NCBI RefSeq assembly: GCF_002251855.1
Contig: NZ_NOXW01000022.1
Location: forward strand, 496,001 to 560,000
DNA: 64,000 nt
Direction of reading: 5' to 3'
Source of the DNA: Rhodoferax sp. TH121
GTDB lineage: Bacteria; Pseudomonadota; Gammaproteobacteria; Burkholderiales; Burkholderiaceae_C
The translations under genes were made by a program, and so were the position numbers. A model generated the notes under the pieces. That model had not been told where the DNA came from. It saw nothing but the letters and a program-made list of their open reading frames with translations, and made no database searches. Shown here piece after piece: positions 3,071 through 62,061 of the stretch. How positions within the stretch are numbered: the stretch's first letter is position 1; each line of letters opens with the position of its first letter.

Positions 3071-4225
3071 ATGCCAAATAAGCCATTGGTGCCCATAGAT
3101 ATTGCGCGAGCAGCTATTGTTTCTGTAGCGTTTTGCGCTGCATCCTTGGCGCTTGCCAATCCTTATTACGACCCGGGCAAACCCCACCATACGCCCGACG
3201 GTTTTCGCAACAACTACAGCGGCGCCGTCCAGAAGCCCTTCTCGGAGCTGGTGCGCTGGCAGTGGGAGTCGTGGCGCGAAGGTTTGCCCAAGCCTGCCCA
3301 GACACCCACGCCCCAAGTCGCCCCCGATCTGCTGCGCATCCAGGGTTACCAGCGCACGCCGGCCGACAGCACGGCGGGCCAGTCCGCGTCGCCACCGGCC
3401 ATCACCTGGGTGGGGCATGCCAGCCTGCTGGTGCAGGCTGGTGGGCTGAATGTGCTGACCGACCCCATCTTCAGTGAGCGCGCTTCTCCCGTTCAACTGT
3501 TTGGCCCCAAGCGGGCCGTGCCACCCGGCGTAGCTTTGGACGATCTGCCCCCCATCGATGTGGTGCTGATCTCCCACAACCACTACGACCACCTGGACCG
3601 CGGCAGTGTGGTTGCGCTGCACCAGCGGGCTTTGACCGCGCGCAGCAGCACCTTGTTTTTGGTCCCACTCGGCCAGAAGCCGTGGTTCACTGCGCTTGGC
3701 ATCGACAGCGTGGTGGAGTTGGACTGGTGGCAACAGCACGCCGTGCGTGGTGTGGACTTCGTGCTGACGCCCGTGCAGCACTGGTCGGCCCGTGGCGTGG
3801 CCGATCGCAGCACCACCTTGTGGGGCGGCTGGGCAGTGCTGGGCCAAGACCTGCATTGGTATTTTGGGGGGGACGCCGGCTATAGCAAAGACTTTCTGGA
3901 CACCCGCCTGCGCCTGGCTACACGTCAGACGGAAGCCTTGGGCGGCGGCTTTGACATCGCGCTCTTGCCCGTGGGGGCCTATGCGCCGCGCTGGTTCATG
4001 CGCGAGCAACATATGAATCCTGAAGAAGCCGTGCAAGCCCACCTCGATTTGGGTGCCCGGCGCAGCGTGGGCATGCACTGGGGGACGTTCCAGTTGACCG
4101 ATGAGCCGCTGGACCAGCCACCGCAAGACCTGGCAGATGCCAAGCGCGCACGACAGTTGGATGACGCGCAGTTTTTTCTCTTGGCGATTGGCGAAACCCG
4201 AACCCTCCCGGCCCGGCCCCGATAG
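3071..4225 (+). CDS. Exported metallo-beta-lactamase-fold hydrolase (NAPE-PLD/RomA-like)
   Basis: 384-residue protein with an N-terminal signal peptide (hydrophobic stretch about residues 10-29, ending ASLALA) and an MBL domain. The metal motif is H169-N-H171-Y-D173-H174; further ligand candidates lie in GGDAGYS and MHWGTFQLT. The segment NPYYDPGKPHHTPDGFRNN after the signal peptide and WESWREGLPKP are typical of the N-acyl-phosphatidylethanolamine phospholipase D-like branch, so a periplasmic phosphodiesterase or lactonase role is inferred. ATG 3071 is chosen because it opens the signal peptide; longer versions read back into the crotonase gene. Residues 4-20 are encoded by a copy of the dispersed repeat, so part of the signal peptide is repeat-derived. 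Confidence 0.8.
   Translation: MPNKPLVPIDIARAAIVSVAFCAASLALANPYYDPGKPHHTPDGFRNNYSGAVQKPFSELVRWQWESWREGLPKPAQTPTPQVAPDLLRIQGYQRTPADSTAGQSASPPAITWVGHASLLVQAGGLNVLTDPIFSERASPVQLFGPKRAVPPGVALDDLPPIDVVLISHNHYDHLDRGSVVALHQRALTARSSTLFLVPLGQKPWFTALGIDSVVELDWWQQHAVRGVDFVLTPVQHWSARGVADRSTTLWGGWAVLGQDLHWYFGGDAGYSKDFLDTRLRLATRQTEALGGGFDIALLPVGAYAPRWFMREQHMNPEEAVQAHLDLGARRSVGMHWGTFQLTDEPLDQPPQDLADAKRARQLDDAQFFLLAIGETRTLPARPR
3082..3129 (+). repeat. Dispersed element copy 1, inside the MBL signal peptide
   Basis: Contains the core TTGCGCGAGCAGCTATTG followed after 6 bases by GTAGC, preceded by a diverged left arm GCCATTGGTGCCCATAGAT. Encodes IARAAIVSVA in the signal peptide of the hydrolase gene. Confidence 0.75.
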
Positions 4226-4254
4226 ACGCTGTTAAGCGTTAGATATTTTTACCA

Positions 4255-4268
4255 AGCAAACGCTTGCT
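4255..4268. promoter_or_regulatory. Inverted repeat, probable operator of the TetR-type regulator
   Basis: AGCAA-ACGC-TTGCT lies 30 bases before the TetR start codon in the only gap upstream of this operon. TetR-family regulators of acyl-CoA catabolism commonly autoregulate through such palindromes, so this is the likely binding site. Confidence 0.5.
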
Positions 4269-4298
4269 AAAAATAAAGGGCTTTGGTATGGTGCGGAC

Positions 4299-7053: not shown

Positions 7054-7062
7054 CAATGCCCC

Positions 7063-7563
7063 ATGGCCAAAACACTTTCTGTTGATGTGGCGCCGGACGC
7101 GGCGCTGCAGTTCGAGCCCGCGTTCATTGCGGGGCTGACCCGCATTTTTGAAGAAAGCATCGTCTTCAACCAGGTACTGGGTCTCAAGATCACCGGCATC
7201 ACACCGGCCAAGGTGAGCGCACGCATTGCCATGCGCCACGAGCTGGTGGGCCACTACAGCTACAACCGCATCCACGGAGGCGTCATCAGCGCCGGGCTGG
7301 ACGCCATGGGCGGGTTGGCGGTCATGGCAGCCATTGGCGCGCGCCATATGGACGAAGCCCCCGAGCAGCGCCTGCACCGCTTTGCCAAACTGGGCACCAT
7401 TGACCTGCGCGTGGACTACCTGCGCCCCGGCATTGGTGAGCACTTTAACCTGCATGCCGAGGTGATGCGCCTGGGTTCGCGCGTGGCTTCCACCCGCATG
7501 GAGTTCCTGGGCGCCGACGGCAAGCTGCTGTCTACCGGATCGGCCGCGTATATCGTTTCCTGA
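7063..7563 (+). CDS. Hotdog-fold acyl-CoA thioesterase (PaaI/YigI-like)
   Basis: 166 residues, single hotdog domain. YNRIHGGVISAGLDAMGG contains the HGG motif and the long helix of PaaI-type thioesterases, followed by the strand GTIDLRVDYLRPG and the closing strand STGSAAYIVS. It hydrolyses acyl-CoA esters, presumably draining or proofreading intermediates of this operon. It starts 9 bases after the acyl-CoA dehydrogenase stop and is the last gene of the TetR operon. A copy of the dispersed repeat begins 3 bases after its stop. Confidence 0.8.
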   Translation: MAKTLSVDVAPDAALQFEPAFIAGLTRIFEESIVFNQVLGLKITGITPAKVSARIAMRHELVGHYSYNRIHGGVISAGLDAMGGLAVMAAIGARHMDEAPEQRLHRFAKLGTIDLRVDYLRPGIGEHFNLHAEVMRLGSRVASTRMEFLGADGKLLSTGSAAYIVS

Positions 7564-7565
7564 GT

Positions 7566-7597
7566 GCTATTAAAACAGGAGCTTTCAGCGCACTATC
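7566..7597 (-). repeat. Dispersed element copy 2, intergenic
   Basis: Read on the minus strand: TAGTGCGCTGAAAGCTCC then TGTTTTAATAGC. It is a diverged, shorter copy directly after the thioesterase stop. The rest of 7564-7716 contains no gene that I can support. Confidence 0.6.
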
Positions 7598-7716
7598 CAC
7601 GGGTCTTTGGGCGTTATTTGACGGTGTTTCTGTGAAATGCGCCGCCTTCTGGCACCACATTGGCGTTTTGCCTCGGGTGGGATGGGACAAGATGCCGCCC
7701 TGCACAGGGAGCCACC

Positions 7717-8397: not shown

Positions 8398-8420
8398 AAA
8401 AGCCACCTTGCGGTGGCTTT
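8398..8420 (-). terminator. Bidirectional terminator between the FliD-like gene and the liv operon
   Basis: Stem AAAGCCACC/GGTGGCTTT (8399-8407 with 8412-8420). The minus-strand tail is a run of six T, so it is strongest for the leftward liv operon; the plus-strand tail is short. Confidence 0.8.
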
Positions 8421-8441
8421 AGGCAGATAAGGGCGCGCCCT

Positions 8442-9617: not shown

Positions 9618-9665
9618 GGTCTTGTCTCCTCGTTGTTGAAAGGGATGCTGAAAGTTGACAGCATT

Positions 9666-11519: not shown

Positions 11520-11524
11520 GCTTA

Positions 11525-15112: not shown

Positions 15113-15248
15113 CTTGCCTCCTCGTGTTGTGCAGTCCGGTTATAGCGGGAGCCCCCTGTTTTACCGATAGGGTTCTCACTGATCTCGTAGACCCTAAGCA
15201 CAGGGGTCTGAACGGTGTTTTCTTGAGTTTGTGAGATTTATAAGAAAT

Positions 15249-15298
15249 GGGCCTGTAGGGCCCATGAATGCGGCGCGAGCAGCTATAAAGGTTGTAGC
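15249..15298 (+). repeat. Dispersed element copy 3, intergenic, full length
   Basis: Left arm GGGCCTGTAGGGCCCATGAA, core GCGCGAGCAGCTAT, right half GTTGTAGC; 50 bp. It sits between the liv operon promoter region and the 3' end of the YciA-like gene, ending one base before the stop codon of that gene. Confidence 0.8.
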
Positions 15299-15299
15299 A

Positions 15300-15716
15300 T
15301 CAGATGGCGCGAACTGGTATCTCTCTGGGTTGGCCGTTGTCGTCGATGGCCACATAGGTCAGTGACGCCTCGGTGACTTTGATGTACTGGCCCTGGCTGC
15401 GAAAACGCTCGGCATAGACCTCCACCTTCACGGTGATGGAGGTCCGGCCAATGCGGCTGACCTTGCTGAAAAAGCTCAAGATGTCGCCCACACGCACCGG
15501 CTGTTTGAAGACAAATTCGTTGACCGCCACGGTGGCCATGCGGCCCTGGGTGTAGCGCGCGGGCAGCACGGAGCCGGCCAGATCGACTTGGGCCATGACC
15601 CAGCCGCCAAAGATGTCGCCGTTCGCATTGCAGTCGCCGGGCATGGGGATGACTTTGAGCACGAGCTCCTGGTCGGTGGGCAATTGGACGATGGGTGGGC
15701 TTGAATTGGTAGACAT
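15300..15716 (-). CDS. Acyl-CoA thioesterase, YciA-like
   Basis: 138-residue hotdog thioesterase. The motif NANGDIFGGWVMAQVDLAG carries the catalytic Asp (in the helix, VDLAG) and is followed by VAVNEFVFKQPVRVGDILSF and VYAERFRSQG, the standard YciA/cytosolic acyl-CoA hydrolase layout. It cleaves short- to medium-chain acyl-CoA in the cytoplasm. ATG 15716 is preferred over GTG 15722 because AGGA lies 8 bases before the ATG but only 2 bases before the GTG. It is transcribed away from the Atm1-type gene. Confidence 0.88.
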   Translation of the reverse strand: MSTNSSPPIVQLPTDQELVLKVIPMPGDCNANGDIFGGWVMAQVDLAGSVLPARYTQGRMATVAVNEFVFKQPVRVGDILSFFSKVSRIGRTSITVKVEVYAERFRSQGQYIKVTEASLTYVAIDDNGQPREIPVRAI

Positions 15717-15757: not shown

Positions 15758-17629
15758 ATGCGCCCCTCTGGTCTCCCCGCTGCAGCCCCTGCGGCCTCCA
15801 TCTCCACCACCGGTCTGGCCGTGACCGTTCCCCCCAAGTCGGACTGGGACACGCTGCGCCGCCTGTTCCCCTACCTGTGGGCCTACAAATGGCGGGTCAT
15901 TGCGGCACTGGCCTTCATGGTGGGCGCCAAGATGGCCAACGTGGGCGTCCCCGTGTTGCTGAAAAACCTGGTGGACGCCATGACCCTGAAGCCGGGCGAC
16001 CCCGCTGCGCTGCTGGTGGTGCCCGCTGCGCTGTTGCTGGGTTATGGCGCCTTGCGCCTGTCCACCTCCTTGTTCACCGAGCTGCGCGAGCTGGTGTTTG
16101 CCAAGGCCACTGAGGGGGCGGCGCGCTCCATCAGCCTGCAGGTGTTCCGCCACCTGCACGCCATGAGCCTGCGCTTTCACCTGGAGCGCCAGACCGGCGG
16201 CATGACGCGCGACATCGAACGCGGCACGCGCGGCGTGCACTCGCTCATCAGCTACTCGCTCTACAGCATCATTCCCACCTTGATCGAGGTGGCGCTGGTG
16301 CTCACGCTGTTGGCGGTCAAGTTTGACGTCTGGTTTGCCTGGATCACCATCGTGGCCTTGGCCGTCTACATCGCCTTCACCATCACCGTGACCGAGTGGC
16401 GCACCCAGTTCCGCAAGAAGATGAACGACATGGACAGCACGGCGCACAGCCGTGCGATCGATTCGCTCCTGAACTACGAAACCGTCAAGTACTTCAACAA
16501 TGAAGAGTTCGAGGCCCGGCGCTATGACGAGAACCTGGAGAAGTACCGCCGCGCCGCCGTCAAGAGCCAGACCACGCTCTCGTTGCTCAACACCGGGCAA
16601 CAGCTCATCATCGCGGTGGCGCTGGTCACCATGTTGTGGCGCGCCACCCAGGGCGTGGTCGACGGGCGCATGACGCTGGGCGATCTGGTCATGGTCAACG
16701 CCTTCATGATCCAGCTCTACATCCCGCTGAACTTCCTGGGCGTGATCTACCGCGAGATCAAACAAAGCCTGACCGACCTGGAAAAGATGTTCACGCTGAT
16801 GGAGCGCGAGCGCGAGATTGCCGATGTGCCCGGCGCGCAAGCCCTGCAGCTGGCAGCCAGCGGCGCCGATGCCACGGTGCGGTTTGAGAACGTCACCTTC
16901 AGCTACGACCAGGCGGGCAGCGCCGCCGCCACGGGCACCACGGCACGCACCATCCTGCACGGCATCAGCTTCGAGATTCCGGCCGGCAAGACGGTGGCCG
17001 TGGTGGGCCCCAGCGGCTCGGGAAAGTCCACGCTGGCACGCCTGCTATTCCGCTTTTATGACGTACAGCAGGGCCGCATCACCATCGCCGGGCAGGACAT
17101 CAAGCAGGTCACCCAAGGCAGTGTGCGCCAGGCCATCGGCATCGTCCCGCAAGACACCGTGCTGTTCAACGACACGGTGGAATACAACATCGCCTACGGC
17201 CGTCCTGGCGCCACACGCGCCGAGGTGGAGGCTGCTGCCAAGGCCGCCCATATCCACGCGTTCATCGCCGCGGCGCCCAAGGGCTTTGAGACCATGGTGG
17301 GCGAGCGCGGCCTCAAGCTCAGCGGTGGTGAGAAACAGCGTGTGGCGATTGCCCGCACGCTGCTGAAGAACCCGCCGGTGATGATTTTTGACGAAGCCAC
17401 CAGTGCACTGGACAGTGCCAACGAACGCGCCATCCAGGCCGAGCTGGCGGGCGTGTCACAGAACAAAACCACCCTGGTCATCGCCCACCGCCTCTCCACC
17501 GTGGTGGATGCGCACGAAATCCTGGTGATGGATGCGGGTCATATCATCGAACGCGGTACCCACGCCCAGCTGCTGGCCGCCAACGGCCGCTACGCGCAGA
17601 TGTGGGCGCTGCAGCAGAGTGCGGAGTGA
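15758..17629 (+). CDS. Atm1/HMT1-type ABC exporter (fused permease-ATPase)
   Basis: 623 residues. An N-terminal six-helix membrane domain (about 40-340) contains the Atm1-family signature DSLLNYETVKYFNNEEFEAR and LLNTGQQLIIAVAL. The C-terminal ATPase has Walker A VVGPSGSGKST, signature LSGGEKQRVAIA and Walker B VMIFDEATSALDS. Atm1 relatives export glutathione-linked sulfur or metal-thiol adducts across the inner membrane and affect heavy-metal tolerance. As a homodimer it needs no partner gene. ATG 15758 is preferred over TTG 15749. Confidence 0.88.
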   Translation: MRPSGLPAAAPAASISTTGLAVTVPPKSDWDTLRRLFPYLWAYKWRVIAALAFMVGAKMANVGVPVLLKNLVDAMTLKPGDPAALLVVPAALLLGYGALRLSTSLFTELRELVFAKATEGAARSISLQVFRHLHAMSLRFHLERQTGGMTRDIERGTRGVHSLISYSLYSIIPTLIEVALVLTLLAVKFDVWFAWITIVALAVYIAFTITVTEWRTQFRKKMNDMDSTAHSRAIDSLLNYETVKYFNNEEFEARRYDENLEKYRRAAVKSQTTLSLLNTGQQLIIAVALVTMLWRATQGVVDGRMTLGDLVMVNAFMIQLYIPLNFLGVIYREIKQSLTDLEKMFTLMEREREIADVPGAQALQLAASGADATVRFENVTFSYDQAGSAAATGTTARTILHGISFEIPAGKTVAVVGPSGSGKSTLARLLFRFYDVQQGRITIAGQDIKQVTQGSVRQAIGIVPQDTVLFNDTVEYNIAYGRPGATRAEVEAAAKAAHIHAFIAAAPKGFETMVGERGLKLSGGEKQRVAIARTLLKNPPVMIFDEATSALDSANERAIQAELAGVSQNKTTLVIAHRLSTVVDAHEILVMDAGHIIERGTHAQLLAANGRYAQMWALQQSAE

Positions 17630-17644
17630 TTTGAGGGTGTTTTA

Positions 17645-17693
17645 TGCCTCCGGGGCTCATGGATATTGCGTGAAAAGCTATTGAATTGATAGC
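17645..17693 (+). repeat. Dispersed element copy 4, intergenic
   Basis: GCCTCCGGGGCTCATGGATA, core TTGCGTGAAAAGCTATTG, right half TTGATAGC. It lies 15 bases after the exporter stop. The remainder of 17630-17779 shows no gene. Confidence 0.75.
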
Positions 17694-17779
17694 GTTCGAG
17701 GCGCGGTGCAGGGATACTCTGCGCCCGCGTACACTCTGCGCCGACTGTTCCCCTCCGCATTTCTGATCCCTATTTCCCC

Positions 17780-24079: not shown

Positions 24080-24090
24080 GACGGAAGATT

Positions 24091-24138
24091 GCTACCAAAT
24101 GTATAGCTGCTTGCGCATATTTCACCTGGGCTACGGCC
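24091..24138 (-). repeat. Dispersed element copy 5, between narK2 and narG
   Basis: Minus-strand reading: GGCCGTAGCCCAGGTGAAAT, core ATGCGCAAGCAGCTATAC, then TTGGTAGC; 48 bp. It occupies half of the narK2-narG gap and could influence mRNA processing or the narG promoter. Confidence 0.8.
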
Positions 24139-24151
24139 TGATTTCATTCAA
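24138..24151. promoter_or_regulatory. Weak FNR-like box upstream of narG
   Basis: CTGAT-TTCA-TTCAA matches the FNR consensus at 8 of 10 positions, 24 bases before the narG start codon. That is too close for a classical activating site, so it may be chance. Confidence 0.25.
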
Positions 24152-24175
24152 AAAATCGACTGCAGAGGTATCCCC

Positions 24176-32959: not shown

Positions 32960-35397
32960 CCGTCCACGGCCTGAACGCCGACAAGCCCCAGCCCATCAGC
33001 CAGGATGTGCTGGCCGAGAAATACCTCAAAGCCGGGGAAACCTGTGCCGACGATGTGTACCTCCGCGTGGCGCGGGCCCTGGCCAGCGCAGAAGCACCGG
33101 AGCAGCAGGCGCATTACGAGGCGCTGTTCCTGGGCAACCTGCGCGCAGGGGCCATCGGTGCCGGCCGCATCATGAGTGCGGCGGGCACCAGCATCCAGGC
33201 CACGCTGATCAACTGCTTTGTGCAGCCCGTGGGCGACTGCATCCAGGGCACGGACGACGAGGGCTACCCCGGCATCTACGAAGCCCTGCGTGAAGCTGCC
33301 GAGACTATGCGCCGCGGTGGCGGTGTGGGCTACGACTTCTCGCGAATCCGCCCGCGCGGGGCTGATGTGAAAGGCACGGCCTCGCTGGCCTCGGGCCCGT
33401 GCAGCTACATCAATGTGTTCGACCAGTCCTGCTCTACGGTGGAGAGCGCAGGCGCGCGGCGCGGTGCGCAAATGGGGGTGCTGCGCATCGACCACCCCGA
33501 TGTGCTGGAGTTCATCACCGCCAAGCGCACGCCGGGGCGTTGGAACAACTTCAATGTCTCGGTGGGCGTGCCCGATGCCTTCATGCAGGCCCTGCAGGCC
33601 GATGCGCCCTGGGGACTGGTGCACCGCGCCAGGCCCGGTGCGGCCCTGCTGGCGCAGGGGGCGCGCCAGCGTGCCGACGGGCGCTGGGTCTACACCACCG
33701 TATCGGCCCGCACCCTGTGGGACACGGTGATGCGCTCCACCTACGACTTTGCCGAGCCTGGCATCCTGTTTCTGGACCGCATGAACCAGGACAACAACCT
33801 GGCCTATTGCGAAACCATAGAAGCCACCAACCCCTGCGGCGAGCAGCCGCTGCCCGCCTATGGCTGCTGCGACCTGGGGCCCATCATCCTGCCGCGCTTT
33901 GTGCAGCACCCCTTTGGCCAGGGCGGCGGCGCAGCGTTTGACTTTGCGGGTTTTGCCCAGTCCGTGGCCCTGCAGGTGCGGGCGCTGGACAATGTGCTGG
34001 ACGTGACGGTGTGGCCGCTGCCCCAGCAGCAGGCCGAGGCCGCCGCCAAGCGCCGCATCGGCGTGGGTTTTACCGGCCTGGGCGACACGCTGACCCTGCT
34101 GGGCCTGCGCTACGACAGCGCTGAGGGCCGAGCCCTGGCCGTGCAGATTGCCAGCTGCATGCGCGACAGTGCCTACGCGGCGTCCGTGGCTCTGGCGCAA
34201 GAGAAAGGTGCCTTTCCCCGGTTTGACGCAGACGGCTACCTGGCAGAAGGTACCTTTGCCAGTCGCCTGCCCGCAGCCCTGCAGGCTGACATCCGCACGC
34301 ACGGCATTCGCAACAGCCATTTGCTCTCCATCGCCCCCACCGGCACCGTGAGCCTGGCCTTTGCCGACAACGCCTCCAACGGCATCGAGCCTGCGTTCTC
34401 CTGGACCTACACGCGCAAAAAACGCGAGGCCGATGGCAGCACCAGCGAATACGCGGTGGAAGACCATGCTTGGCGCGTCTACCGCGCACAAGGCGGCGAT
34501 GTGAACCAACTGCCTGCCAGCTTTGTGTCTGCGCTGGAAATGGCTGCGCAAGACCACATCGCCATGATGGAGGCGGTGCAGCCGCTGGTAGACACGGCCA
34601 TCTCCAAGACCGTGAACGTGCCGGCCGACTACCCCTATGAAGATTTCAAGGGCCTGTACCTGCAGGCCTGGCAGGCGCGGCTCAAGGGCCTGGCCACCTA
34701 CCGGCCCAACGCCATCCTTGGCTCCGTGCTGCAGGTCACTCCTTCACCTGTTGCAGTGCCAGAAGTTACTCCCGAGTTGATAGCTGCTCGCGCAGATCCC
34801 ATGCGTGCTGTGATCGAAAAACGCCCTAAAGGTTCGCTGGCCGCCGTGGCCGAGAAGGTGGAGTATTGGACGCAGGAAGGGCACAAGACCCTGTACCTGC
34901 TGGTGTCCTTTTTGCCGGTGCCGACAGCAGACGGCAGGGGCACCGTGGAGCGTGCCATCGAGTTCTTCATGCCGCTGGGCCAAAGCGGGGAGTCGCAGCA
35001 GTGGATTACGTCCAGCATGCGCCTGCTCTCGCTGGCGGCGCGTGGTGGCTTTCTGGAGCGGGCTCTGCGCGACATGCGCAAAGTGGCCTGGGACCGCGGC
35101 CCGGTGCGCCTGGGCCACTACACCAAGCAGGATGGCAGCAAGGTCCCGCTGTGGCACGACTCCGAGGTGGCTGCCATTGCCTACGCGCTGCAGCAAATCA
35201 TTGCGCGACGGCAGGCGCCTGCCGGTGCGTCGGAGGCTGCAGACGACGCCGAAGACAACAGCCTGGGGCTGAGCACACCGTCGGCCAACCCGGTGATGGT
35301 GGGCAAGAAGTGCGGTGAGTGCGGCGCCTATGCCGTGATCCGCAAGGATGGCTGTGGCTACTGCACCCAGTGCGGCCACGTGGGGACCTGCGGATGA
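32956..35397 (+). CDS. nrdJ: Adenosylcobalamin-dependent (class II) ribonucleotide reductase
   Basis: 813 residues. It makes deoxyribonucleotides with B12 and without oxygen. C87 (NCFVQPVGD) and C294 with E296 (TNPCGEQPLP) are the expected active-site residues; RRGGGVGYDFSRIRPRG and SIAPTGTVSLAF match the family. The C-terminus has a zinc-type tail (CGECGAY...CGYCTQCGHVGTCG). Residues about 604-615, in a linker before the C-terminal domain, are encoded by a copy of the dispersed repeat. Placement in the nar operon gives dNTP synthesis in anoxia. ATG 32956 overlaps the DGC gene by 4 bases. Confidence 0.95.
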   Translation: MTVHGLNADKPQPISQDVLAEKYLKAGETCADDVYLRVARALASAEAPEQQAHYEALFLGNLRAGAIGAGRIMSAAGTSIQATLINCFVQPVGDCIQGTDDEGYPGIYEALREAAETMRRGGGVGYDFSRIRPRGADVKGTASLASGPCSYINVFDQSCSTVESAGARRGAQMGVLRIDHPDVLEFITAKRTPGRWNNFNVSVGVPDAFMQALQADAPWGLVHRARPGAALLAQGARQRADGRWVYTTVSARTLWDTVMRSTYDFAEPGILFLDRMNQDNNLAYCETIEATNPCGEQPLPAYGCCDLGPIILPRFVQHPFGQGGGAAFDFAGFAQSVALQVRALDNVLDVTVWPLPQQQAEAAAKRRIGVGFTGLGDTLTLLGLRYDSAEGRALAVQIASCMRDSAYAASVALAQEKGAFPRFDADGYLAEGTFASRLPAALQADIRTHGIRNSHLLSIAPTGTVSLAFADNASNGIEPAFSWTYTRKKREADGSTSEYAVEDHAWRVYRAQGGDVNQLPASFVSALEMAAQDHIAMMEAVQPLVDTAISKTVNVPADYPYEDFKGLYLQAWQARLKGLATYRPNAILGSVLQVTPSPVAVPEVTPELIAARADPMRAVIEKRPKGSLAAVAEKVEYWTQEGHKTLYLLVSFLPVPTADGRGTVERAIEFFMPLGQSGESQQWITSSMRLLSLAARGGFLERALRDMRKVAWDRGPVRLGHYTKQDGSKVPLWHDSEVAAIAYALQQIIARRQAPAGASEAADDAEDNSLGLSTPSANPVMVGKKCGECGAYAVIRKDGCGYCTQCGHVGTCG
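34765..34797 (-). repeat. Dispersed element copy 6, inside nrdJ
   Basis: Minus-strand core ATCTGCGCGAGCAGCTATCA followed by a diverged right end GTAAC. It encodes PELIAARADP in frame in NrdJ. Confidence 0.6.
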
Positions 35398-43398: not shown

Positions 43399-44177
43399 TC
43401 AAGCTGCAGCAGTCCCCCGTGGATATTGCCGCAATCAACTGGGACGCACCCTGGCTGCAGCCCTGGCGCGCCGTGGGCGAGGGGCTGGCCGCGCAGATCA
43501 ACGGCGGCTTGAGCGTGGCGGATGCCTTGAATGCGGCGCAGCGCGCACCGGTGCGGTTTGTGCCGCAGGCCGAGTTGCCTGCAGGCATGGCCTATGAGCA
43601 GCACATTTTTGAGACCGGCCGCGTGCCCACGCGGGATGGTCTGCATGACTTTTTCAACGGACTGTGCTGGCTGCACTTTCCGCTGGCCAAGCAGAAACTC
43701 AACCAGCTGCAGGCCGAGCAGATTGCCCAGATCGGCATCCAGCCCGTGCGCGGCGCTGCGCGTGATGCGCTGACCGTGTTTGACGAAAACGCAGCGCTGC
43801 TGGTCGCACCCGAACCTTTATGGCAGGCCCTGCAAGCCAAGGACTGGGAGACGCTGTTTGGCCGCCTGCGCCCGCTGTGGGCCCAGGCCTCGCTGCTGCT
43901 GTTTGGCCATGCGCTGCTGGAGAAGCTCATTTACCCACGAAAACCGATCACAGCCCATGTATTTGTTGTGCAAGCAGCTATCGAATCCATAGCAGAACTG
44001 GACGTCTGGTTGGCCCAAACTCTCTCGGCACCGCTCTTGGCCAGCAAACCGTTTGCGCATTTGCCGGTGTTGGGCGTGCCGGGCTGGTGGCCCGACAACG
44101 AGACGCCCGCGTTTTACGCCGATGCCAGCGTCTTCCGGGCGCCACGCCCCTCCGCAGGAGCGCTGCAAAGCCCATAA
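43395..44177 (+). CDS. DUF3025 domain protein
   Basis: 260 residues. ETGRVPTRDGLHDFFNGLCW, DALTVFDENAALLVAP and VLGVPGWWPDNETPAFY are DUF3025 hallmarks; the function is unknown, although WH(L)-type motifs with conserved Asp/His/Asn suggest an enzyme. Residues about 186-200 (HVFVVQAAIESIAEL) are encoded by a copy of the dispersed repeat. It is translationally coupled to the NYN gene (ATGA). Confidence 0.82.
   Translation: MIKLQQSPVDIAAINWDAPWLQPWRAVGEGLAAQINGGLSVADALNAAQRAPVRFVPQAELPAGMAYEQHIFETGRVPTRDGLHDFFNGLCWLHFPLAKQKLNQLQAEQIAQIGIQPVRGAARDALTVFDENAALLVAPEPLWQALQAKDWETLFGRLRPLWAQASLLLFGHALLEKLIYPRKPITAHVFVVQAAIESIAELDVWLAQTLSAPLLASKPFAHLPVLGVPGWWPDNETPAFYADASVFRAPRPSAGALQSP
43951..43994 (+). 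repeat. Dispersed element copy 7, inside the DUF3025 gene
   Basis: ACAGCCCATGTATTTG, core TTGTGCAAGCAGCTATCG, right half TCCATAGC. Read in the same frame as copies 1 and 10 (x-Ala-Ala pattern). Confidence 0.75.
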
Positions 44178-45893: not shown

Positions 45894-47685
45894 GCATGTC
45901 CAAGGCCAGAGCCTCTGCCACTTTGATGCCGTCCACCCCTGCGGACAAAATGCCGCCGGCGTAGCTGGCACCTTCGCCGGCCGGATACAGACCGCGCACG
46001 TTGGTGCTTTGCAGGTCATCGCCACGTGGCATCTTGATGGGGCTGGAGGTACGGGTTTCCACACCGGTCAACACTGCGTCTGCCATGTCAAAGCCCTTGA
46101 TCTTCTTGCCAAACGCGGGCAGCGCCTCGCGCAGCGCGGCAATGGCATAGCCGGGCAGGCTGGGCGCCAGGTCACCCAGCTTCACGCCGGGCTTGTACGA
46201 CGGGGTCACACTGCCAAATTCGGTGGAGGGCTTGGCGGCGATGAAGTCGCCCACCAGCTGGCCGGGCGCCTCGTAGGTGCCGCCGCCTAGTGTGTAGGCG
46301 CCACTCTCCAGCTGGCGCTGGAACGCAATGCCTGACAGGGGGTGTGCGGCTTTGGGGTCCTGGGCCTTCATCGCGGCGGCTTCTGCCGCGTAGCGCTGGC
46401 CTTTCTCTTCGCCAAAGGCGTGCACAAAAGCGGCTTCGTCGTCCGGGTAGTCGGGCGGGTCGATGCCCACCACCATACCGGCGTTGGCGTTGCGCTCGGC
46501 GCGTGAGTACTGGCTCATGCCGTTGGTGACCACACGGCCCGGCTCGCTGGTGGCGGCCACCACGGTGCCACCGGGGCACATGCAGAAGCTGTACACCGCG
46601 CGCCCGTTGGCGGCGTGGTGCACCAGCTTGTAGTCCGCCGCACCCAAGAGCGGGTGGCCAGCGTGGCGGCCCCAGCGTGCGCGGTCGATTACGCTTTGCG
46701 GGTGTTCGATGCGAAAGCCCACCGAGAACGGCTTGCTCTGCATGGCTACGCCGCGCTCATAGAGCATGGCAAAGGTGTCGCGGGAACTGTGGCCCAGCGC
46801 CAAGACTACGTGGCGGGCAGGCAGCACGTAATGCTCTCCGTTTTGAAGGTTTTCGACCTCTAGCCCTCGTAGAGTCTGCGCGGATAGCTCCTGATTCAAT
46901 AGCAAATCTGCCACCCGCTGCTCAAAGCGAATCTCTCCGCCCAGTGCGATGATCTGCTCGCGGATGCCTTCAACCACCTTCACCAGCTTGAAGGTGCCGA
47001 TGTGCGGGTGGGCTTCATACAGGATCTCGGCTGGCGCACCGTGCTGCACAAACTCGTGCATGACCTTGCGGCCCAGAAATCGCGGGTCCTTGATCTGGCT
47101 GTAGAGCTTGCCGTCCGAAAACGTGCCCGCGCCGCCTTCGCCAAACTGCACATTGCTCTCGGGGTTCAGGTTCTTCTTGCGCCACAGGCCCCAGGTGTCC
47201 TTGGTGCGCTCGCGCACCGGTTTGCCGCGCTCCAGCACGATGGGCTTGAAGCCCATTTGCGCCAGCACCAGCGCCGCAAACATGCCGCACGGCCCAAAGC
47301 CCACCACCACCGGGCGCTCGGCCAAATCGGCCGGAGCCTGCGCGACCAGATGGTAGGCCATGTCCGGCGTGGGCAGGATGTGCGGATGGTTCGGGAATTT
47401 GGCGAGTAAGGGCGCTTCCAGCGCCAGGTCCGTCAGCGTGAGGTCCACGATGTAGACCGCCAGCAAATCGGCCTTGCGCGCATCAAAGCTGCGCTTGAAG
47501 ACATGCAGGTCGGCGATGGCCGCCATGTCGATGCCCAGTGCCTGGGCGCTGAGGCGCTTGAGCGCATCGATTGGGTGCGCCACGGGCGCGCGGTCGGCCT
47601 CGGTCTCGGTGGGGGCGTCGGCGGCACGGCGCTCTTCCACGGGCAAGGCGGACAGGGGGAGTTTGAGTTCGGTCAGGCGGATCAT
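45877..47685 (-). CDS. FAD-dependent oxidoreductase (COG2509-like)
   Basis: 602 residues. After an N-terminal ferredoxin-like region (about 1-105), the dinucleotide motif VVGFGPCGMFAALVLAQMG is followed by QFGEGGAGTFSDGKL, FCMCPGGTVVAATSE and the C-terminal GLYPAGEGASYAGGILSAGVDG. This pattern belongs to uncharacterised FAD-dependent dehydrogenases of many bacteria; the substrate is unknown. Residues about 261-276 (LLNQELSAQTLRGLEVE) are encoded by a copy of the dispersed repeat, inside the FAD/NAD domain between two strands. Confidence 0.85.
   Translation of the reverse strand: MIRLTELKLPLSALPVEERRAADAPTETEADRAPVAHPIDALKRLSAQALGIDMAAIADLHVFKRSFDARKADLLAVYIVDLTLTDLALEAPLLAKFPNHPHILPTPDMAYHLVAQAPADLAERPVVVGFGPCGMFAALVLAQMGFKPIVLERGKPVRERTKDTWGLWRKKNLNPESNVQFGEGGAGTFSDGKLYSQIKDPRFLGRKVMHEFVQHGAPAEILYEAHPHIGTFKLVKVVEGIREQIIALGGEIRFEQRVADLLLNQELSAQTLRGLEVENLQNGEHYVLPARHVVLALGHSSRDTFAMLYERGVAMQSKPFSVGFRIEHPQSVIDRARWGRHAGHPLLGAADYKLVHHAANGRAVYSFCMCPGGTVVAATSEPGRVVTNGMSQYSRAERNANAGMVVGIDPPDYPDDEAAFVHAFGEEKGQRYAAEAAAMKAQDPKAAHPLSGIAFQRQLESGAYTLGGGTYEAPGQLVGDFIAAKPSTEFGSVTPSYKPGVKLGDLAPSLPGYAIAALREALPAFGKKIKGFDMADAVLTGVETRTSSPIKMPRGDDLQSTNVRGLYPAGEGASYAGGILSAGVDGIKVAEALALDMLTPRA
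46857..46903 (+). repeat. Dispersed element copy 8, inside the FAD oxidoreductase gene
   Basis: Left arm CCTCTAGCCCTCGTAGAG, core TCTGCGCGGATAGCTCC, right half TTCAATAGC; full length, opposite to the gene direction. The gene strand reads it as LLNQELSAQTLRGLEVE. Confidence 0.75.
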
Positions 47686-53591: not shown

Positions 53592-53597
53592 GATAAT
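53592..53597 (+). promoter_or_regulatory. -10 box of rnpB
   Basis: GATAAT, 6 bases before the inferred 5' end of rnpB; no clear -35 hexamer at 17 bases. Confidence 0.4.
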
Positions 53598-53603
53598 CGT
53601 CAT

Positions 53604-53979
53604 GTGAAGCCCACCAGACCACCGCTGGTGCAATCTGGGAAACCAGGCACTGGAGGAACGTCCGGACTGCATAGGGCAGCGTAGCAGTTAACGACTGTCC
53701 ACCGACAAGCGTTTGGCGTAAGCCAAGCGCCCTAAGGTGAGGATTAGAGCAACAGAGACGAGTTTTGGACTCGGACGCAACGCAAGTTGCGGCACGAGCC
53801 CAAAGGTGAAACGGGCAATCTCTACGCGCAGCAATACCAAGTAGGCCAACGTTGACGGGGCCCCCGGAGTTGGCGGGTAGGTAGCATCGAGCCGTTTGGG
53901 TGACCAGCGGCCCAGAGTAATGGTGGTCACGTGGGGGGAAACCCCCATGCACAGAATCCGGCTTATCGGTGGGCTTCAC
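53604..53979 (+). ncRNA. rnpB: RNase P RNA, bacterial class A
   Basis: The ribozyme that matures tRNA 5' ends. The P1 stem pairs GTGAAGCCCACC at the 5' end with GGTGGGCTTCAC at the 3' end. Conserved regions seen are GAGGAACGTCCGGACT, CATAGGGCAG, GAGGATTAGAGCAACAGAGA and the 3' AGAATCCGGCTTATCGG. Total length is about 376 bases, as for beta-proteobacteria. A run of seven T at 53982-53988 after P1 gives a terminator. Confidence 0.95.
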
Positions 53980-54029
53980 ACTTTTTTTGTTGTATGGTTG
54001 GGTCTTCACAGTCACTGGGAGATGAAGCC

Positions 54030-54458: not shown

Positions 54459-54481
54459 TATCGCCCCCACGCTCCGCCCAC

Positions 54482-54600: not shown

Positions 54601-54610
54601 GGAGATTGCA

Positions 54611-55618
54611 CTAAAACTTCTCGTATCCAGCGAGAAACCGCCACTGCCCCACAGGCATGTCGGCCAGGGTGACGCGGCCCAGGCGGATGCGGCGCATGGC
54701 CAGGATATCGAGCTTGGCCAGTCCGCACAGGTAGGCCACCAGGCCGGGGTGCGAGCCTTTGATGGCGAAGCGCAGCCGGCTCAGTTCTGGGGTGCTGCTG
54801 TTCACGCTCACCTTCACCGACGGTAGGTCCAGGCGCTCGTCCTTGAGCGCGTAGCCAATCGGTTTGAGGGCATCGGCTTCCACTGCGCCTTTCACCTCCA
54901 CCAAGAACTCGTGCTCCATGGTCGCCATGTCTTCGGTCAGCTTGCGCGTGGTGCGCCAGTCCTGTGTGAACACCACCAGTCCGCTGGCACCGTTCTCCAG
55001 CTCAATGTCAGCCTCCAGGTGCTTGAAATGGCGCTGCAGCACGGGCGTGTCCGTCGGGTCGTGTTCCCAGTGGGTCTGCGCCGTCAGCAGGTTGCGTGCG
55101 TCGGGAATCGCCTTGCGTCCGCGTGCAGGGGACATTTCTTCTGTGCCATCTGTGTAGCCCGGCGGTTTGTTCAGCAGCAGGGTCACGGCAGTCAGGTTGA
55201 GCAGGCTCGCGTTCGGGTCCACGGTGATGGTCTCGCGGTCTACGCGGTGCGCAGGCTCTTCCACCACGACGCCATTAACGCGCACCCAGCCGCCCTCGAT
55301 GTATTGCTCTGCTTCCTTGCGCGAGCATTCCTTGAGCTGCATCACGCGCTTGGACAGGCGCTCGCCAGTGTCGGGCAGGGGCTTGGGCGCAGCCTTGCCC
55401 GGTGCCCTGGCGCGCGGCGGGCGGGCATCCGCTGTGGCAGCGCGGACTTTGTTGGGGGCTGCCGCAGGGCGGCCTGCGGGCCGTGGCCCAGCTGGGCGCG
55501 GGGTTGGCGCGCGTGCGGGCTTGGCGGGGGGGGGCGATGCAGGCGCCTTGCGGGCCGCAGGTGCTGCCTTAGGCGCAGGCTTGGGTTTGGGCGTGAGCTT
55601 GAGGGTGGGGCGGTTCAT
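54611..55618 (-). CDS. Pseudouridine synthase, RluF-like, with unusual active site
   Basis: 335 residues. A Pro/Ala/Lys-rich, low-complexity extension of about 100 residues precedes an S4 RNA-binding domain (ERLSKRVMQLKECSRKEAEQ) and an RsuA/RluB/RluF-type catalytic domain. The usual catalytic Asp (L-D-x-x-S/T-x-G-L) is replaced by Glu: E208 in IELENGASGLVVF. Either the family tolerates Glu, the enzyme is inactive, or it functions only in RNA binding. It ends near the palindrome cluster and its start overlaps the MBL gene stop by 4 bases. Confidence 0.75.
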   Translation of the reverse strand: MNRPTLKLTPKPKPAPKAAPAARKAPASPPPAKPARAPTPRPAGPRPAGRPAAAPNKVRAATADARPPRARAPGKAAPKPLPDTGERLSKRVMQLKECSRKEAEQYIEGGWVRVNGVVVEEPAHRVDRETITVDPNASLLNLTAVTLLLNKPPGYTDGTEEMSPARGRKAIPDARNLLTAQTHWEHDPTDTPVLQRHFKHLEADIELENGASGLVVFTQDWRTTRKLTEDMATMEHEFLVEVKGAVEADALKPIGYALKDERLDLPSVKVSVNSSTPELSRLRFAIKGSHPGLVAYLCGLAKLDILAMRRIRLGRVTLADMPVGQWRFLAGYEKF

Positions 55619-56565
55619 GGCAGGGAGCCTTTCTGCGCCGCCAGTGCCTGGATGCGCTCCACATGCGCCAGCAGGGAGCGCTTGGCCACGGGCCATAGGC
55701 GCGAGTCCACGTCGTCATAGGCCAGGGGCACCCAGTCGTCAGGGCTGCCCGCCGGGATGGCTTGCATGGCGGCAGCGACCTTGGCCTCGCGCGCCAGGCG
55801 GTGTGCCTTGAGCTTGGCAATCGCTTCTAGCGCACCGTCGATCACATGCCCATGCGCTGGCAGGATGTACTGCACACCGTGTGCGGTACAGGCCTCGGTT
55901 AGCGTGTCCAACGAGTCCAGGTAGTCGGCCATACTGCCGTCGGGCGGGTCAATCACCGTGGTGCTGCCGTTGAGGATGTGGTCGCCGCTGAACAGCAGGC
56001 CGTCCTCCTCCAGCAGCAGGCACACATGGTTGGCGGCGTGGCCGGGGGTATGGATCACCTGCAGCGTGTGCACGGGCTTTAAAGCAGTTTCAACGTCCAG
56101 CCCAGGCAGCATATGCGCGAGCAGCTCCCGATTTAATAGCGGCCGGTCGGGCGTGAAGGCGCTGGCGGCGCGTGCTGTGGGAGCAGACGGCAGGCCCAGG
56201 ATGGGTGGGCCGCCCTGGCACAGGGCCTGCAGCGGTGCGGCGCCGGGCGAGTGGTCGGGGTGGGAATGGGTGCAGACGATGCGCAGGACGTTGCCGCCCG
56301 TGCCGTCCTCAAACTGCGCGGCCTGCCACAGGCGCTGCAGGTGGTCGGCATCGGCCGGGCCGGGGTCGATCACGGTGTAGCCGGTGGCGGGCTCGCCCAC
56401 CAGGTAGCTGTTGGTGCCGGGGCCGGTCATCACGCCGGGGTTGGGCGCGGTCAGGCGCAGCACATTGCGGGTCAGGGGGACGGGGCGTTCGGTTTGCCAG
56501 GCGTCAACGAGCGAGGCGGCCGCGGGCAAGGTATCCGCAGGCAGGGTGTGGGTGGGTCTAACCAT
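55615..56565 (-). CDS. Metallo-beta-lactamase-fold hydrolase (LACTB2/glyoxalase II-like)
   Basis: 316 residues. Metal motif [10 protein letters not shown] near residue 100, then [18 protein letters not shown] and [10 protein letters not shown], the arrangement of LACTB2-type MBL proteins, with the tail helix region [21 protein letters not shown] and VIDPGPAD are typical N-terminal motifs. It may be a ribonuclease or thioesterase; the context gives no substrate. Residues about 142-156 ([17 protein letters not shown]) come from a dispersed repeat. It is transcribed divergently from dapF, 38 bases apart. Confidence 0.82.
56098..56140 (+). repeat. Dispersed element copy 9, inside the MBL gene
   Basis: CAGCCCAGGCAGCA, core TATGCGCGAGCAGCTCCC, right half TTTAATAGC. 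It shares orientation and reading frame with copy 8 relative to the gene. Confidence 0.75.
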
Positions 56566-56602
56566 GCGGCGGATTGTGACGCCAAACGCGGATAATCCGG
56601 CC

Positions 56603-57472
56603 ATGCGAATTCCGTTCACCAAAATGCAGGGCGCCGGCAACGACTTTGTCGTGCTCGACGAAACGCGCGGTCGGCTGGGCCTGACCGAGGCGCACTATCG
56701 CTTCCTGGGTGACCGCCACTTTGGCGTGGGCGCCGACCAGATTCTGACGGTGCGCCCCTCGCCGGCCGAGGGCATCGACTTCGAATACGTAATCCACAAC
56801 GCTGACGGCAACGAGGTGGAGCAGTGCGGCAATGGCTCGCGCTGCTTTGCCCGCTTTGTGCACGACCGCGGCCTCACCACCAAAGACCGCATCCGCGTGC
56901 AGACCATGAAAGGCGTGATCGAGCCGCGCCTGAACGCCGATGGCCGCGTCACCGTGGACATGGGCGCGCCGGTGTTCACGCCGGCCGAGATTCCGTTTGA
57001 CGACAGCGGTCTGGTGCTGCAGCCCATGGGCTCTTGGGGAAATTGGCCGCTCGCCCTCGCGGAAACTGCGCAAGCCGCTCCTCTTTTCGTAGCAACTGTG
57101 TCCATGGGTAATCCTCATGCGGTGACGCTGGTGGACGACGTGGACACCGCCGCGGTGGCCACACTGGGCCCGGCCGTGCAGGCCAGCCCGCGTTTCCCGC
57201 AGGGCGTGAACGTGGGCTTTCTGCAGGTGGTGGACCGTAGCCATGTGCGCCTGCGGGTGTTTGAGCGCGGTGTGGGCGAGACCCTGGCCTGCGGCACCGG
57301 CGCCTGCGCGGCCGTGGTGGCTGGCATCCGCTTGGGTCTGTTGGACGCCAGCGTGGACGTGCAGACCCGCGGCGGCGTACTCACCATTGCGTGGGCGGGC
57401 CTGGGCCAGTCGGTCTTCATGACTGGCCCCGCCACCACCGTGTTCCACGGCGAAATTGACCTTCCCGAATAA
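56603..57472 (+). CDS. dapF: Diaminopimelate epimerase DapF
   Basis: 289 residues. It interconverts LL- and meso-diaminopimelate for lysine and peptidoglycan. The two catalytic cysteines are C75 ([11 protein letters not shown]) and C230 ([10 protein letters not shown]); the start [15 protein letters not shown] and SMGNPHAV are family motifs. A GATAAT -10-like sequence lies 6 bases before the ATG. Residues about 149-164 ([17 protein letters not shown]), just before SMGNPHAV, are encoded by a dispersed repeat; this essential enzyme presumably tolerates it. It heads dapF-DUF484-xerC. Confidence 0.95.
57049..57093 (+). repeat. Dispersed element copy 10, inside dapF
   Basis: GCTCGCCCTCGCGGAAA, core CTGCGCAAGCCGCTCC, right half TTTCGTAGC. 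Alignable over its length with copy 8 (for example GCCCTCG and CTGCGC). Confidence 0.7.
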
Positions 57473-57487
57473 CCTCACATCCTCACC

Positions 57488-58186: not shown

Positions 58187-58198
58187 CCCTCGTTGGTC

Positions 58199-59179: not shown

Positions 59180-60730
59180 CTAGCCCGGCAGGGCCTGCTG
59201 CATGCCTGGCAGCCGGAACACCGAGACGGCGCGTACCTGCTCTCCGGCCAATCCCTTGAGGCTGCTGGCAGCGGCCGCCATTTGCTCCACCAAGGCGGCG
59301 TTTTGCTGGGTGGTCTGGTCCATTTGCACCACGGCCTCGCCCACCTGCTCCACGCCCTTGGCCTGCTCGCTGCTGGCGGCGCTGATCTCCGCCATGATGT
59401 TGGTTACGAGCTGGATGCTCTGTACGACCTCGGCCATGGTCGAGCCCGCCTCGTCCACCAAGGTGGTGCCTTGCGCCACGCGTTCCACGCTGGTGCTGAT
59501 CAGGGTCTTGATTTCCTTGGCCGCCTCGGCGCTGCGCCCGGCCAGGCTGCGCACCTCGCTGGCCACCACGGCAAAACCGCGGCCCTGTTCGCCCGCCCGC
59601 GCCGCTTCCACGGCAGCGTTCAGCGCCAGGATGTTGGTCTGGAAGGCGATGCCGTCGATCACGCTGATGATGTCGGCGATCTTGTTGCTCGATTCGTGGA
59701 TGCCCTTCATGGTCTGCACCACCTGGCCACCCTTTTGCGCCACGCTGGAGGCCGTGCTGGCCAACTGATTGGCTTGCTTGGCGGCGTCAGCGTTGTGCTT
59801 CACCGTGGCGCTGAGTTCTTCCATGCTGGCCGCGGTTTCTTCCAGTGCGCTGGCCTGTTGTTCCGTACGGGTCGAGAGGTCGTTGTTACCCTGCGCAATC
59901 TCCGCGCTCGCGCTGGCCACGCCTTCTGATCCCTGGCGCACCGTGGATACGACGGCTACTAGGCTGTCCTGCATATCGCGCAGCGCACCCAGCAGAAGCC
60001 CCGTTTCGGTCTTTCCTTTCGCTTCAATGTGCTGGGTCAGGTTGCCTCCTGCCACTTCGCGGGCCAGGTCCACCGCCTGGTTCAGGGGCTGGGTGATGGC
60101 GCGAATCAGCAACACACCAATGGCGCTGCCCACGGCGATCGCGGCCACCACAATGATGCTGAACAGAAGCATGGTTTCCTGGTAGCTGGCAGTGGATCGG
60201 TCGTATTCGGCCTTGGCCTCTGTCAGTTGCAAGTCCACCAGCTTACTCAAGCCTTCGCTCAGAGGGTCCACCTGCTCGTACAGCGGGCGCACCAGCGCAG
60301 CCACTTGTTCGCGGCTGCCCGCTGCCAGAGCGGCTTGCAGGCTCGCCACGACCGGGGCTGCCTTGCCCACGCGCTCGGTGACGGCGGCTGCGTCCAGTTT
60401 TTCCTGCGGGGTGAGTTCGGTGGCCAGGTAATCTTTCCACTGCTTTTGAATGTCGACCAGGCTGTTGCTGACGTTGGCTTGGGCTGCCTTGGGCTCGAGC
60501 AAGCCTGCGGATACCTTGTTGGCGTTGTCGATGATGTTGACTGCGTAAAGGTCAGACACCGCCTTGAGCTGCTTGAGAGGGACCACCCGGTCGGCATAAA
60601 TGGTGCCAATGGACTGGTTGGTCACGCGGACTTCGTACAGGCCGAAGGCTGCCATCAGTGCCACCAGGGCGACCAGACTGGCAAAGCCCAAGCTCAGGCG
60701 GGTGGAGAACTTCACATTGCTCAAGTCCAT
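59180..60730 (-). CDS. Methyl-accepting chemotaxis protein
   Basis: 516 residues. TM1 (about 10-33), periplasmic four-helix bundle sensor (about 34-185, 4HB_MCP), TM2 (about 190-212), HAMP ([20 protein letters not shown]) and a signalling helix hairpin with the tip [20 protein letters not shown] and [20 protein letters not shown]. No C-terminal CheR-binding pentapeptide is seen. The ligand is unknown. The stop TAG at 59180-59182 directly abuts the xerC stop, sharing a CTAGCTAG sequence. Confidence 0.92.
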
Positions 60731-60879
60731 AGCGGTCCCTTTGTTCCAGACGTTGCGGGTGGGTGTCGCCGCGGCACGGGCTCGCAGCGACGCAATTTTT
60801 CTCCGGTGCATCCCAATATAGGCCAGCGTCTCTGGCTTGTAAACGGGAGGTTGCCGCTGGATGGCCGACAATTGCAGGC

Positions 60880-62061
60880 ATGAAAACCATTCGCCTGCGC
60901 GCCGGCAAAGAGCGCTCCCTGTTACGCCGCCATCCCTGGATCTTTGATTCGGCCATTGCCAAGGGCGGTGGTGACAGCGGGGAGACCGTGCGCGTGGAGT
61001 CGGCCGAAGGGCAGTTCCTGGGCTGGGCAGCATTCAGCCCGCAGTCCAAGATCCGCGCGCGGGTCTGGAGTTTTGACGAAAAGCAGCGCATCGATGCTAG
61101 CTTTTTCGTAGCTGCTTGCGCAGAATCTGTAAGGGCTAGAGCCAGATTTGATATCAAAAGCGATGGTGTGCGCCTGGTGCACGGCGAGTCTGACGGCCTG
61201 CCCGGCCTCATCGTGGACCGCTATGGCGACACGCTGGTGGCCCAGTTCACCTCCGCTGGCGTGGAGAAGTGGAAGGGCGTGATCGCTGATGCGCTCTTGG
61301 CGGCCACGGGCCTGACCAAGCTCTACGAGCGTTCCGACGCCAGCAGCCGCGCACTGGAAGGCCTGCCCGAGGCCACGGGTTGGCTGCGCGGTGAGGGCGC
61401 CACCGACTTGGTGCTGCAGGAGCATGAATGGAAGTTGGCGCTGAGCATTGCCGAGGGCCACAAGACCGGCTTCTACCTGGACCAGCGCGACAGCCGCAAG
61501 CGCTTTGCCGACACGACACGCCGCCTGGGTTTCCAGACCGTGCTCAACTGCTACTGCTACACGGGCGGCTTCACCGTGGCAGCGCTCTCGGGCGGTGCGG
61601 ACCACGTGACTTCCATTGACTCCAGCGGCCCGGCCATCGAGAAAGCGCGCGCAAACGTGGCGCTCAACGGTTTTGAAGCCAGCCGTGCCACCTTCATGGA
61701 CGCCGACGTGAACGCAAGCTTGCGTGCTTTTGCCGCTGAGGGCCGTACCTTTGACGCCATCATCCTGGACCCGCCCAAGTTCGCGCCCACTGTGGCCCAT
61801 GCGGAGCGGGCAGCCCGCGCGTACAAGGACATCAACCGCCTAGCCTTCAAGCTGTTGCAACCCGGGGGCGTGCTATTCACCTATAGCTGCTCGGGCGGCA
61901 TTAGCGCTGACCTGTTTCACAAGATCATCGCCGGCGCCGGTTCGGACGCTGGGGTCGATGGCTACATTACCGAACGCATGGGCGGCGCGCCGGATCACCC
62001 CATGACCATTGCCTTCCCCGAAGGAGAGTACCTCAAAGGTCTGGTGGTGATGCGGCGCTGA
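60880..62061 (+). CDS. rlmI: 23S rRNA (cytosine-C5) methyltransferase, RlmI-like
   Basis: 393 residues. A PUA-like N-terminal domain ([20 protein letters not shown]) and EEHD domain precede the Rossmann methyltransferase: [40 protein letters not shown] and [13 protein letters not shown], with the catalytic-type YSCSGGIS. It methylates 23S rRNA. Residues about 73-88 ([16 protein letters not shown]) are encoded by a dispersed repeat, in the helix region preceding [11 protein letters not shown]; relative to E. coli RlmI the length is nearly conserved. Confidence 0.9.
61096..61143 (-). repeat. Dispersed element copy 11, inside rlmI, full length
   Basis: Minus-strand reading: GGCTCTAGCCCTTACAGAT, core TCTGCGCAAGCAGCTAC, right half AAGCTAGC; 48 bp. 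Best-preserved example of the left arm TCTAGCCCTT. Confidence 0.85.

Follow-up and report, generated by a model that had tools for sequence, protein, structure and literature searches.

Introduction

The DNA uptake sequence (DUS) of Neisseriaceae is described as occurring in dialects, at intragenic and permissive positions and in close inverted pairs (PMC3630211). In Polaromonas naphthalenivorans, a spaced motif, ATAGCT(N)22CAAAAG, has been reported with 125 copies, 101 intergenic and 34 between convergent genes (Tong et al. 2017, PMC5217627); in the same survey Rhodoferax ferrireducens has the most motif pairs among 569 genomes, and the function is left open. Further described repeats are the repetitive extragenic palindromes (REPs), which are palindromes of 20-40 bp (PMC3733652), and the betaproteobacterial repeat element BRE, which occurs in Comamonadaceae with some copies in coding sequence, is about 90 bp long with 69% GC in Bordetella, often stands in tandem, and is present in only 4 copies each in R. 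ferrireducens and P. naphthalenivorans (PMC3110155). Here we describe a dispersed 68-bp element of Rhodoferax sp. TH121, based on a stretch of 64,000 nucleotides (contig NZ_NOXW01000022.1, positions 496,001 to 560,000; hereafter the window), the remainder of that genome and related genomes. The element is present in many copies with a fixed internal frame, is shared at orthologous sites, is constrained at the DNA level within genes that it has not entered by insertion, and exists in another genus as a separate dialect. Combined, these features point to a double-stranded DNA recognition site maintained by selection or drive, which, by analogy with uptake sequences, may serve as a tag of kin DNA.

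In the open-licence literature searched, no DNA uptake sequence was reported for Comamonadaceae, the 68-bp extent, dialects and in-place origin of the element were not described, and the sequence words of the element gave an unrelated match only.

Results

A 68-bp unit with fixed spacing

The original prediction described a unit of about 48 bp with 11 copies in the window. All 11 were recovered by a 68-column weight matrix built on 34 strict copies (from 30 fetched loci and the window), with scores of 20.5-77.7 bits; nothing else in the window exceeded 8 bits, and the reversed window gave no match. A covariance model found the same 11 places with E-values of 2.5e-5 to 7e-16, a result not independent of the matrix, as the model alignment consisted of 29 of the 34 seed copies, five with weak left arms having been excluded, and two weaker window copies. 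The unit itself had to be extended to 68 bp, from -41 to +26 around the core, since conservation continues to the left of the arm recognised initially, with TTT near -38 and AAAT near -29. When oriented on TGCGCRAGCAGCTAY, the strict copies display the gapless conserved blocks TTT near -38, AAAT near -29 and CTAGC near -18 and a CGTGGA stretch near -10, followed by TGCGCRAGCAGCTAY-N7-RTAGC. The spacing between AGCTAY and RTAGC, previously given as 5-9 bases, is fixed at seven in 96 of 96 genome matches of a pattern that permitted 3-12 bases.

Genes were called with our own simple open reading frame caller (coding fraction 0.926 over 464 kb). The copies had been assigned as seven in genes and four intergenic; both settings do occur, and our caller yields six and five, respectively, with each of the five copies between genes at most 13 bp from a stop codon. 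The copies are as follows, where G156 and G150 are genomes of sister species in the same genus, G014 belongs to another genus and G123 is a further genome of the family:

3065..3132 (+), intergenic copy 13 bp past a stop codon; 71.8 bits, covariance model 54.4 bits; corresponding copies in G156 and G150
7563..7630 (-), degenerate copy at the stop codon of a thioesterase-family gene (Pfam 4HBT); 20.5 bits, in register with a 63.5-bit copy in G156
15234..15301 (+), intergenic copy ending at the stop of the next minus-strand gene; 62.0 bits; common to G156 and G150
17629..17696 (+), copy at the stop codon of an ABC transporter gene (Pfam); 46.5 bits; absent in G156 and G150
24088..24155 (-), copy 8 bp past the stop codon of an MFS transporter gene (Pfam); 77.7 bits; no syntenic context in G156 or G150
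34765..34832 (-), antisense copy in the ribonucleotide reductase large-chain gene (32956-35397, +); 32.1 bits; beyond the part aligned to solved homologues
43929..43996 (+), copy in a DUF3025 gene (43395-44177, +; Pfam); 55.1 bits; same place in G156, G150 and G014; motif-free orthologues differ by 0-3 residues
46839..46906 (+), antisense copy in a VP0956-like gene (45877-47685, -); 39.9 bits; same place in G156 and G150, not in G014
56076..56143 (+), antisense copy in a gene (55615-56622, -) whose product is, judged by its sequence, a probable metallo-hydrolase; 46.2 bits; same place in G156, G150 and G014
57029..57096 (+), copy in the diaminopimelate epimerase gene dapF (56603-57472, +); 42.2 bits; same place in G156, G150 and G014; a 30-bit match in G123
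61093..61160 (-), antisense copy in an RlmI/YccW-like methyltransferase gene (60880-62061, +); 71.9 bits; same place in G156, G150 and G014

Genome-wide, GCRAGCAGCTAYN{3,12}RTAGC has 96 matches (50 forward, 46 reverse) and none in a backwards control, while a looser pattern has 371 (186 forward, 185 reverse), again with an empty control; the covariance model matched every one of the 150 genome candidates scored out of 2056. In 464 kb around and including the window, a matrix refitted on its own matches detected 68 copies with a score over 12 bits; most of them reach 60-75 bits and a single one stays under 30. In the reversed control no position exceeded 14 bits and one exceeded 8. This density extrapolates to approximately 590 copies in the 3.99 Mb genome. 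The element is real in the sense first proposed, i.e. dispersed, in both orientations, within and between genes and far above chance, and it occurs in many genera.

Among the 68 copies, 27 lie inside genes, 30 between genes and 11 on a gene edge, and for 33 of the 41 outside genes a stop codon is found within 30 bp. With element orientation counted, 11 copies are located between convergent genes and 3 between divergent ones, and the in-gene copies divide into 12 sense and 15 antisense. One reading frame predominates on each strand (34 of 40 on the same strand, 29 of 41 on the opposite one, in three related genomes), which, in our reading of the consensus, is the frame without stop codons. In the same three genomes no neighbouring copies are less than 500 bp apart, against 11.9 such gaps expected, and the spacing otherwise resembles random placement (coefficient of variation 0.86-1.00); the three share most sites, so counts across them are not independent.

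Sites shared between species

Much of the window is collinear with G156 and G150, the aligned pieces having about 70-98% identity, mostly 78-90%. For 42 of the 68 sites both flanks are present in G156; the element stands there in the same orientation at 38 of these, is absent at 3 and is reversed at 1; the corresponding figures in G150 are 47 sites with flanks, 41 with a same-orientation element, 5 without and 1 reversed. Orthologous sites with and without the element, which the original prediction proposed to look for, thus both exist, and most are shared. Furthermore, 59 of the 68 copies are situated in DNA common to the sister species, compared to 47.5 expected (p=0.002). The site differences between sister species imply that gains or losses occur, and at one site the species differ by about 86 bp of intergenic sequence, so that intergenic copies may also come or go by insertion or deletion. 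Sharing with the sister species, together with four in-gene sites shared with another genus, comes close to the outcome that the original prediction had named as refuting it, copies ancestral at the same positions in distant relatives, and the element does not behave like a mobile repeat.

At one intergenic site (G000:C17 region position 142067, window coordinate -57933) the element is reversed in both sister species, and the oppositely oriented copies look independent. A 21-kb block (window about 18309-39488) that contains two element copies has no equivalent at the collinear position in either sister genome.

In-gene copies and DNA-level constraint

The original prediction saw kinship with Rickettsia palindromic elements, REPs or miniature inverted-repeat transposable elements (MITEs), i.e. 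with inserted sequences. The in-gene copies do not support this. Ten element-bearing genes were compared with motif-free orthologues, nine from G145 (of the same genus as G014) and one from G031, and the net length change is 0 residues in five, then 1, 1, 2, 4 and 6. The G031 comparison is that of the copy at 68707, where G031, rich in a dialect of its own, has no copy, and the comparison at 459521 was made at 50% identity. As a gap of 22-23 residues is missing from the motif-free orthologues, the motif has been written into existing codons. The same holds for five window in-gene copies set against orthologues of eight family genomes, seven without a matrix match in the pieces examined and G123 with one of 30 bits: no 22-23 residue gap was found, and RlmI is gapless throughout. 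The G123 match is at the corresponding place in dapF, the product of which is 9 residues longer there. In G014 the motif occupies the same codons of the DUF3025, metallo-hydrolase, dapF and RlmI genes, not those of the VP0956-like gene, and it is in none of the five orthologues of G145. In addition, one site near a gene start is common to G150 and G031 despite their different dialects. Relative to solved homologues, RlmI (compared with E. coli YccW, 3c0k) and IcmF have no gap over the element, whereas DapF and the VP0956-like protein (compared with 3nlc) are longer at the element by about 10 and 9 residues, respectively, and some loops have therefore changed length.

The constraint acts on the DNA. 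In 44 element-relative pairs covering 25 of 27 in-gene elements, with a match required in the relative, third codon positions are identical in 82.7% of high-information columns, compared to 58.7% of low-information columns and 59.5% of flanks (high-information versus flank p=3e-23). Low-information columns fall below the flanks in identity at the first and second codon positions (72.2 and 76.2%, compared to 89.7 and 94.0%), so that the host protein tolerates change here, with the motif bases being maintained. Without the requirement for a match, third-position identity is 81.0% versus 57.4% (p=8e-12) in 24 pairs from 14 elements; these are 24 of 54 pairs, the other 30 having been dropped because context was missing or gap lengths were unequal, and 23 of the 24 were shared sites.

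The ends of the element had been noted as able to pair. Counted over 187 copies from three genomes, Watson-Crick pairing between those arm positions that vary is at or below the shuffled number (100 versus 105.2, and 66 versus 89.6), the invariant arm positions being uninformative for covariation. The palindrome centre in the 96 strict copies is AAA, AAT, ATT or TTT with few TpA steps, an avoidance that is weaker in G031, and A/T content along the unit is best fitted by a period of 10.9 bp (p=0.017 by column permutation in this genome and 0.0005 in G031). This phasing and centre composition look like those of a bent or wrapped protein site, from which we infer binding. An Rfam search of the window found RNase P only (a class A RNA gene at 53606-53981, +), and eight loci gave weak unrelated matches only.

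Occurrence across the family

In 150 genomes of the family as defined by GTDB, the looser pattern matches in 61, and 55 match the covariance model at E <=1e-4, 31 of these through every one of the 33 candidates that were scored. Within the genus, 31 of 61 genomes have at most 2 pattern matches and 12 have more than 150; many of these genus genomes are incomplete, and the pattern-poor ones may hold other dialects. G031 is such a case: the pattern matches once in the whole genome, yet in 200 kb there are 48 copies of a different consensus that keeps the 68-bp frame and reads TAGCCGGCGTATTTATTGCCT in its middle part, with no copy in the reversed control. Nothing scored above 0 bits in the 204 kb examined of G145. 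Strict-pattern matches with names come from 45 stretches, assigned to Rhodoferax, Curvibacter, Comamonadaceae bacterium and unassigned proteobacterial metagenome-assembled genomes, one labelled Gammaproteobacteria.

Two side observations concern occurrence. In G031 (49% GC; e.g. L222-L231) the copies recur about every 4 kb, a higher density than in the genome of the window, and four neighbour gaps are shorter than 500 bp. The core pattern is also present in 32 stretches of viral contigs (L287-L318), all 32 of which exceed 15 bits with the 68-bp matrix.

A transposase-encoding parent, which the original prediction suggested to look for, was not seen in a search restricted to the Y1_Tnp family. 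The sole Y1-type transposase gene found in the genome resembles the REP-associated tyrosine transposases (RAYTs), and its orthologues are also present in element-free genomes. This single-copy gene (L031:1462-2154; G000:C17:783925-784614) has a stop codon that overlaps a 45-bit element copy. Blocks of the form GCTAY-N-AAATTT-GATRTGTCCC and GGAATCTGACCCC are located 3' of many RAYT orthologues.

Discussion

In its strand symmetry, its origin in place, its use of permissive positions, its link to shared DNA, its dialects and its absence from relatives, the element is more like uptake sequences than like any other genome motif known to us. On this analogy we tentatively favour the view that it is a self-recognition tag for natural transformation, maintained by selection or biased recombination rather than spread by transposition. 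A surface or pilus protein complex would bind free DNA at the GCTAY-N7-RTAGC core and at the phased A/T tracts, the tagged kin DNA would be imported and recombined, and tagged alleles would be favoured. The motif would thereby enter permissive places, i.e. positions just past stop codons and loosely constrained stretches of proteins. We infer in this scheme both that the binding protein serves uptake and that drive maintains the copies. More speculatively, the element could constitute a 68-bp, multi-block and helically phased kin-DNA code of Comamonadaceae and relatives, with lineage dialects, read by a DNA-wrapping complex. Such a code would contrast with a ten-letter word read by one pilin, and biased recombination might then write hundreds of sites, coding sequence included, a suggestion that we put forward with comparable reserve. 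Transformation as published for Comamonadaceae appears to be sequence-selective: Acidovorax temperans was transformed solely by DNA of its own species, and uptake in Verminephrobacter requires type IV pili, withstands excess foreign DNA and appears selective (PMC4212676).

Several points weigh against an uptake role. Conservation over 68 columns is several times the length of an uptake sequence, for which about 9-12 bp would be expected and 9-11 bp are quoted (PMC4212676). The close inverted pairs described for DUS are missing in the three related genomes with their lack of gaps below 500 bp, an objection tempered by the four such gaps in G031. No receptor was identified, the gene compared across motif-rich and motif-poor genomes being ComEC; as a gene separating the two it was rejected, being present in 32 of 33 genomes, whether these are rich or poor in the motif, and giving no match in G183, which has 39 pattern matches.

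The main and serious rival is a chromosome-organising site: hundreds of copies would be wrapped over their 68 bp by a protein of the nucleoid, of supercoiling or of segregation, and uptake would not be involved. The phased A/T tracts, the TpA-poor centre, the location at gene 3' ends with its excess of convergent over divergent settings, and the lack of short gaps in the three non-independent genomes are all in agreement with such a function. However, close relatives do without the element, as seen from the genus genomes with at most 2 matches beside those with more than 150 (other dialects may be missed in this count), and the spacing is otherwise like random placement. We consider this explanation possible, if somewhat unlikely.

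A REP/REPIN-like or MITE-like mobile repeat, moved by a RAYT transposase or by a lost parent, is in our view very improbable. RAYT was considered as the driver because the stop codon of its gene overlaps a copy; a copy is also located 3' of the G031 RAYT gene, fragments occur 3' of RAYT in other genera, and some sites are occupied in one species and empty in others. Nevertheless, RAYT orthologues are present in 142 of 150 family genomes compared to 61 of 150 for the element pattern, and the eight genomes without a RAYT match include the element carriers G040 and G131, of which the element-rich G040 is 74% complete. This distribution, the arms without covariation in an element constrained at the DNA level, and the lack of in-gene insertion led us to reject RAYT as driver, and for the in-gene copies the mobile explanation is largely refuted. 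Least probable of all is an RNA hairpin, terminator or transcript processing signal, a reading which the proximity of copies to stop codons would favour and which was rejected on the Rfam results, the composition of the palindrome centre, arm pairing at or below shuffled numbers and the occurrence of in-gene copies in both orientations.

If the element is an uptake code, it would provide a candidate signal for the sequence-selective transformation in Acidovorax and Verminephrobacter, and would add another large bacterial group with such a system, using a signal several times longer than the known ones. As a chromosome-organising site, it would instead be unusual for its length and density. On either reading, protein-coding sequence in many genera is under constraint from long DNA sites that number in the hundreds. 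Sharp contrasts between species, along with the dialects, put the recognising protein within reach of a comparative search.

Compared with the REP/REPIN-RAYT systems, the element shares abundance, a small palindrome, a frequent position past genes and a RAYT-like gene in the genome, but differs in that 27 of 68 copies are in genes, without having been inserted, and in that the arms lack covariation. With BRE it has in common the occurrence in Comamonadaceae and some copies in coding sequence (PMC3110155); the two nevertheless appear to differ, being set apart by length, GC content and copy number as far as the published description goes. The Polaromonas motif begins with the same block, ATAGCT, and its 22-base gap ends exactly at the conserved CTAGAG of the element, whereas its second block differs in 2 of 6 letters, in a comparison with the published motif and not with Polaromonas DNA. 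The 2017 survey therefore probably saw part of the element in Polaromonas, judging from the motif letters, and that article gives no 68-bp unit, dialects, orthology or function for it (PMC5217627). Unlike DUS and the uptake signal sequences (USS) of Pasteurellaceae, which are of about 10 bp, the element has 68 bp in several blocks and no close inverted pairs in three genomes, and its proposed uptake role is by analogy. Common to it and to both of these are dispersed copies that number in the hundreds to thousands and lie on either strand, within genes and downstream of them, as well as permissive places, an association with core DNA and lineage dialects (PMC3630211, PMC4212676).

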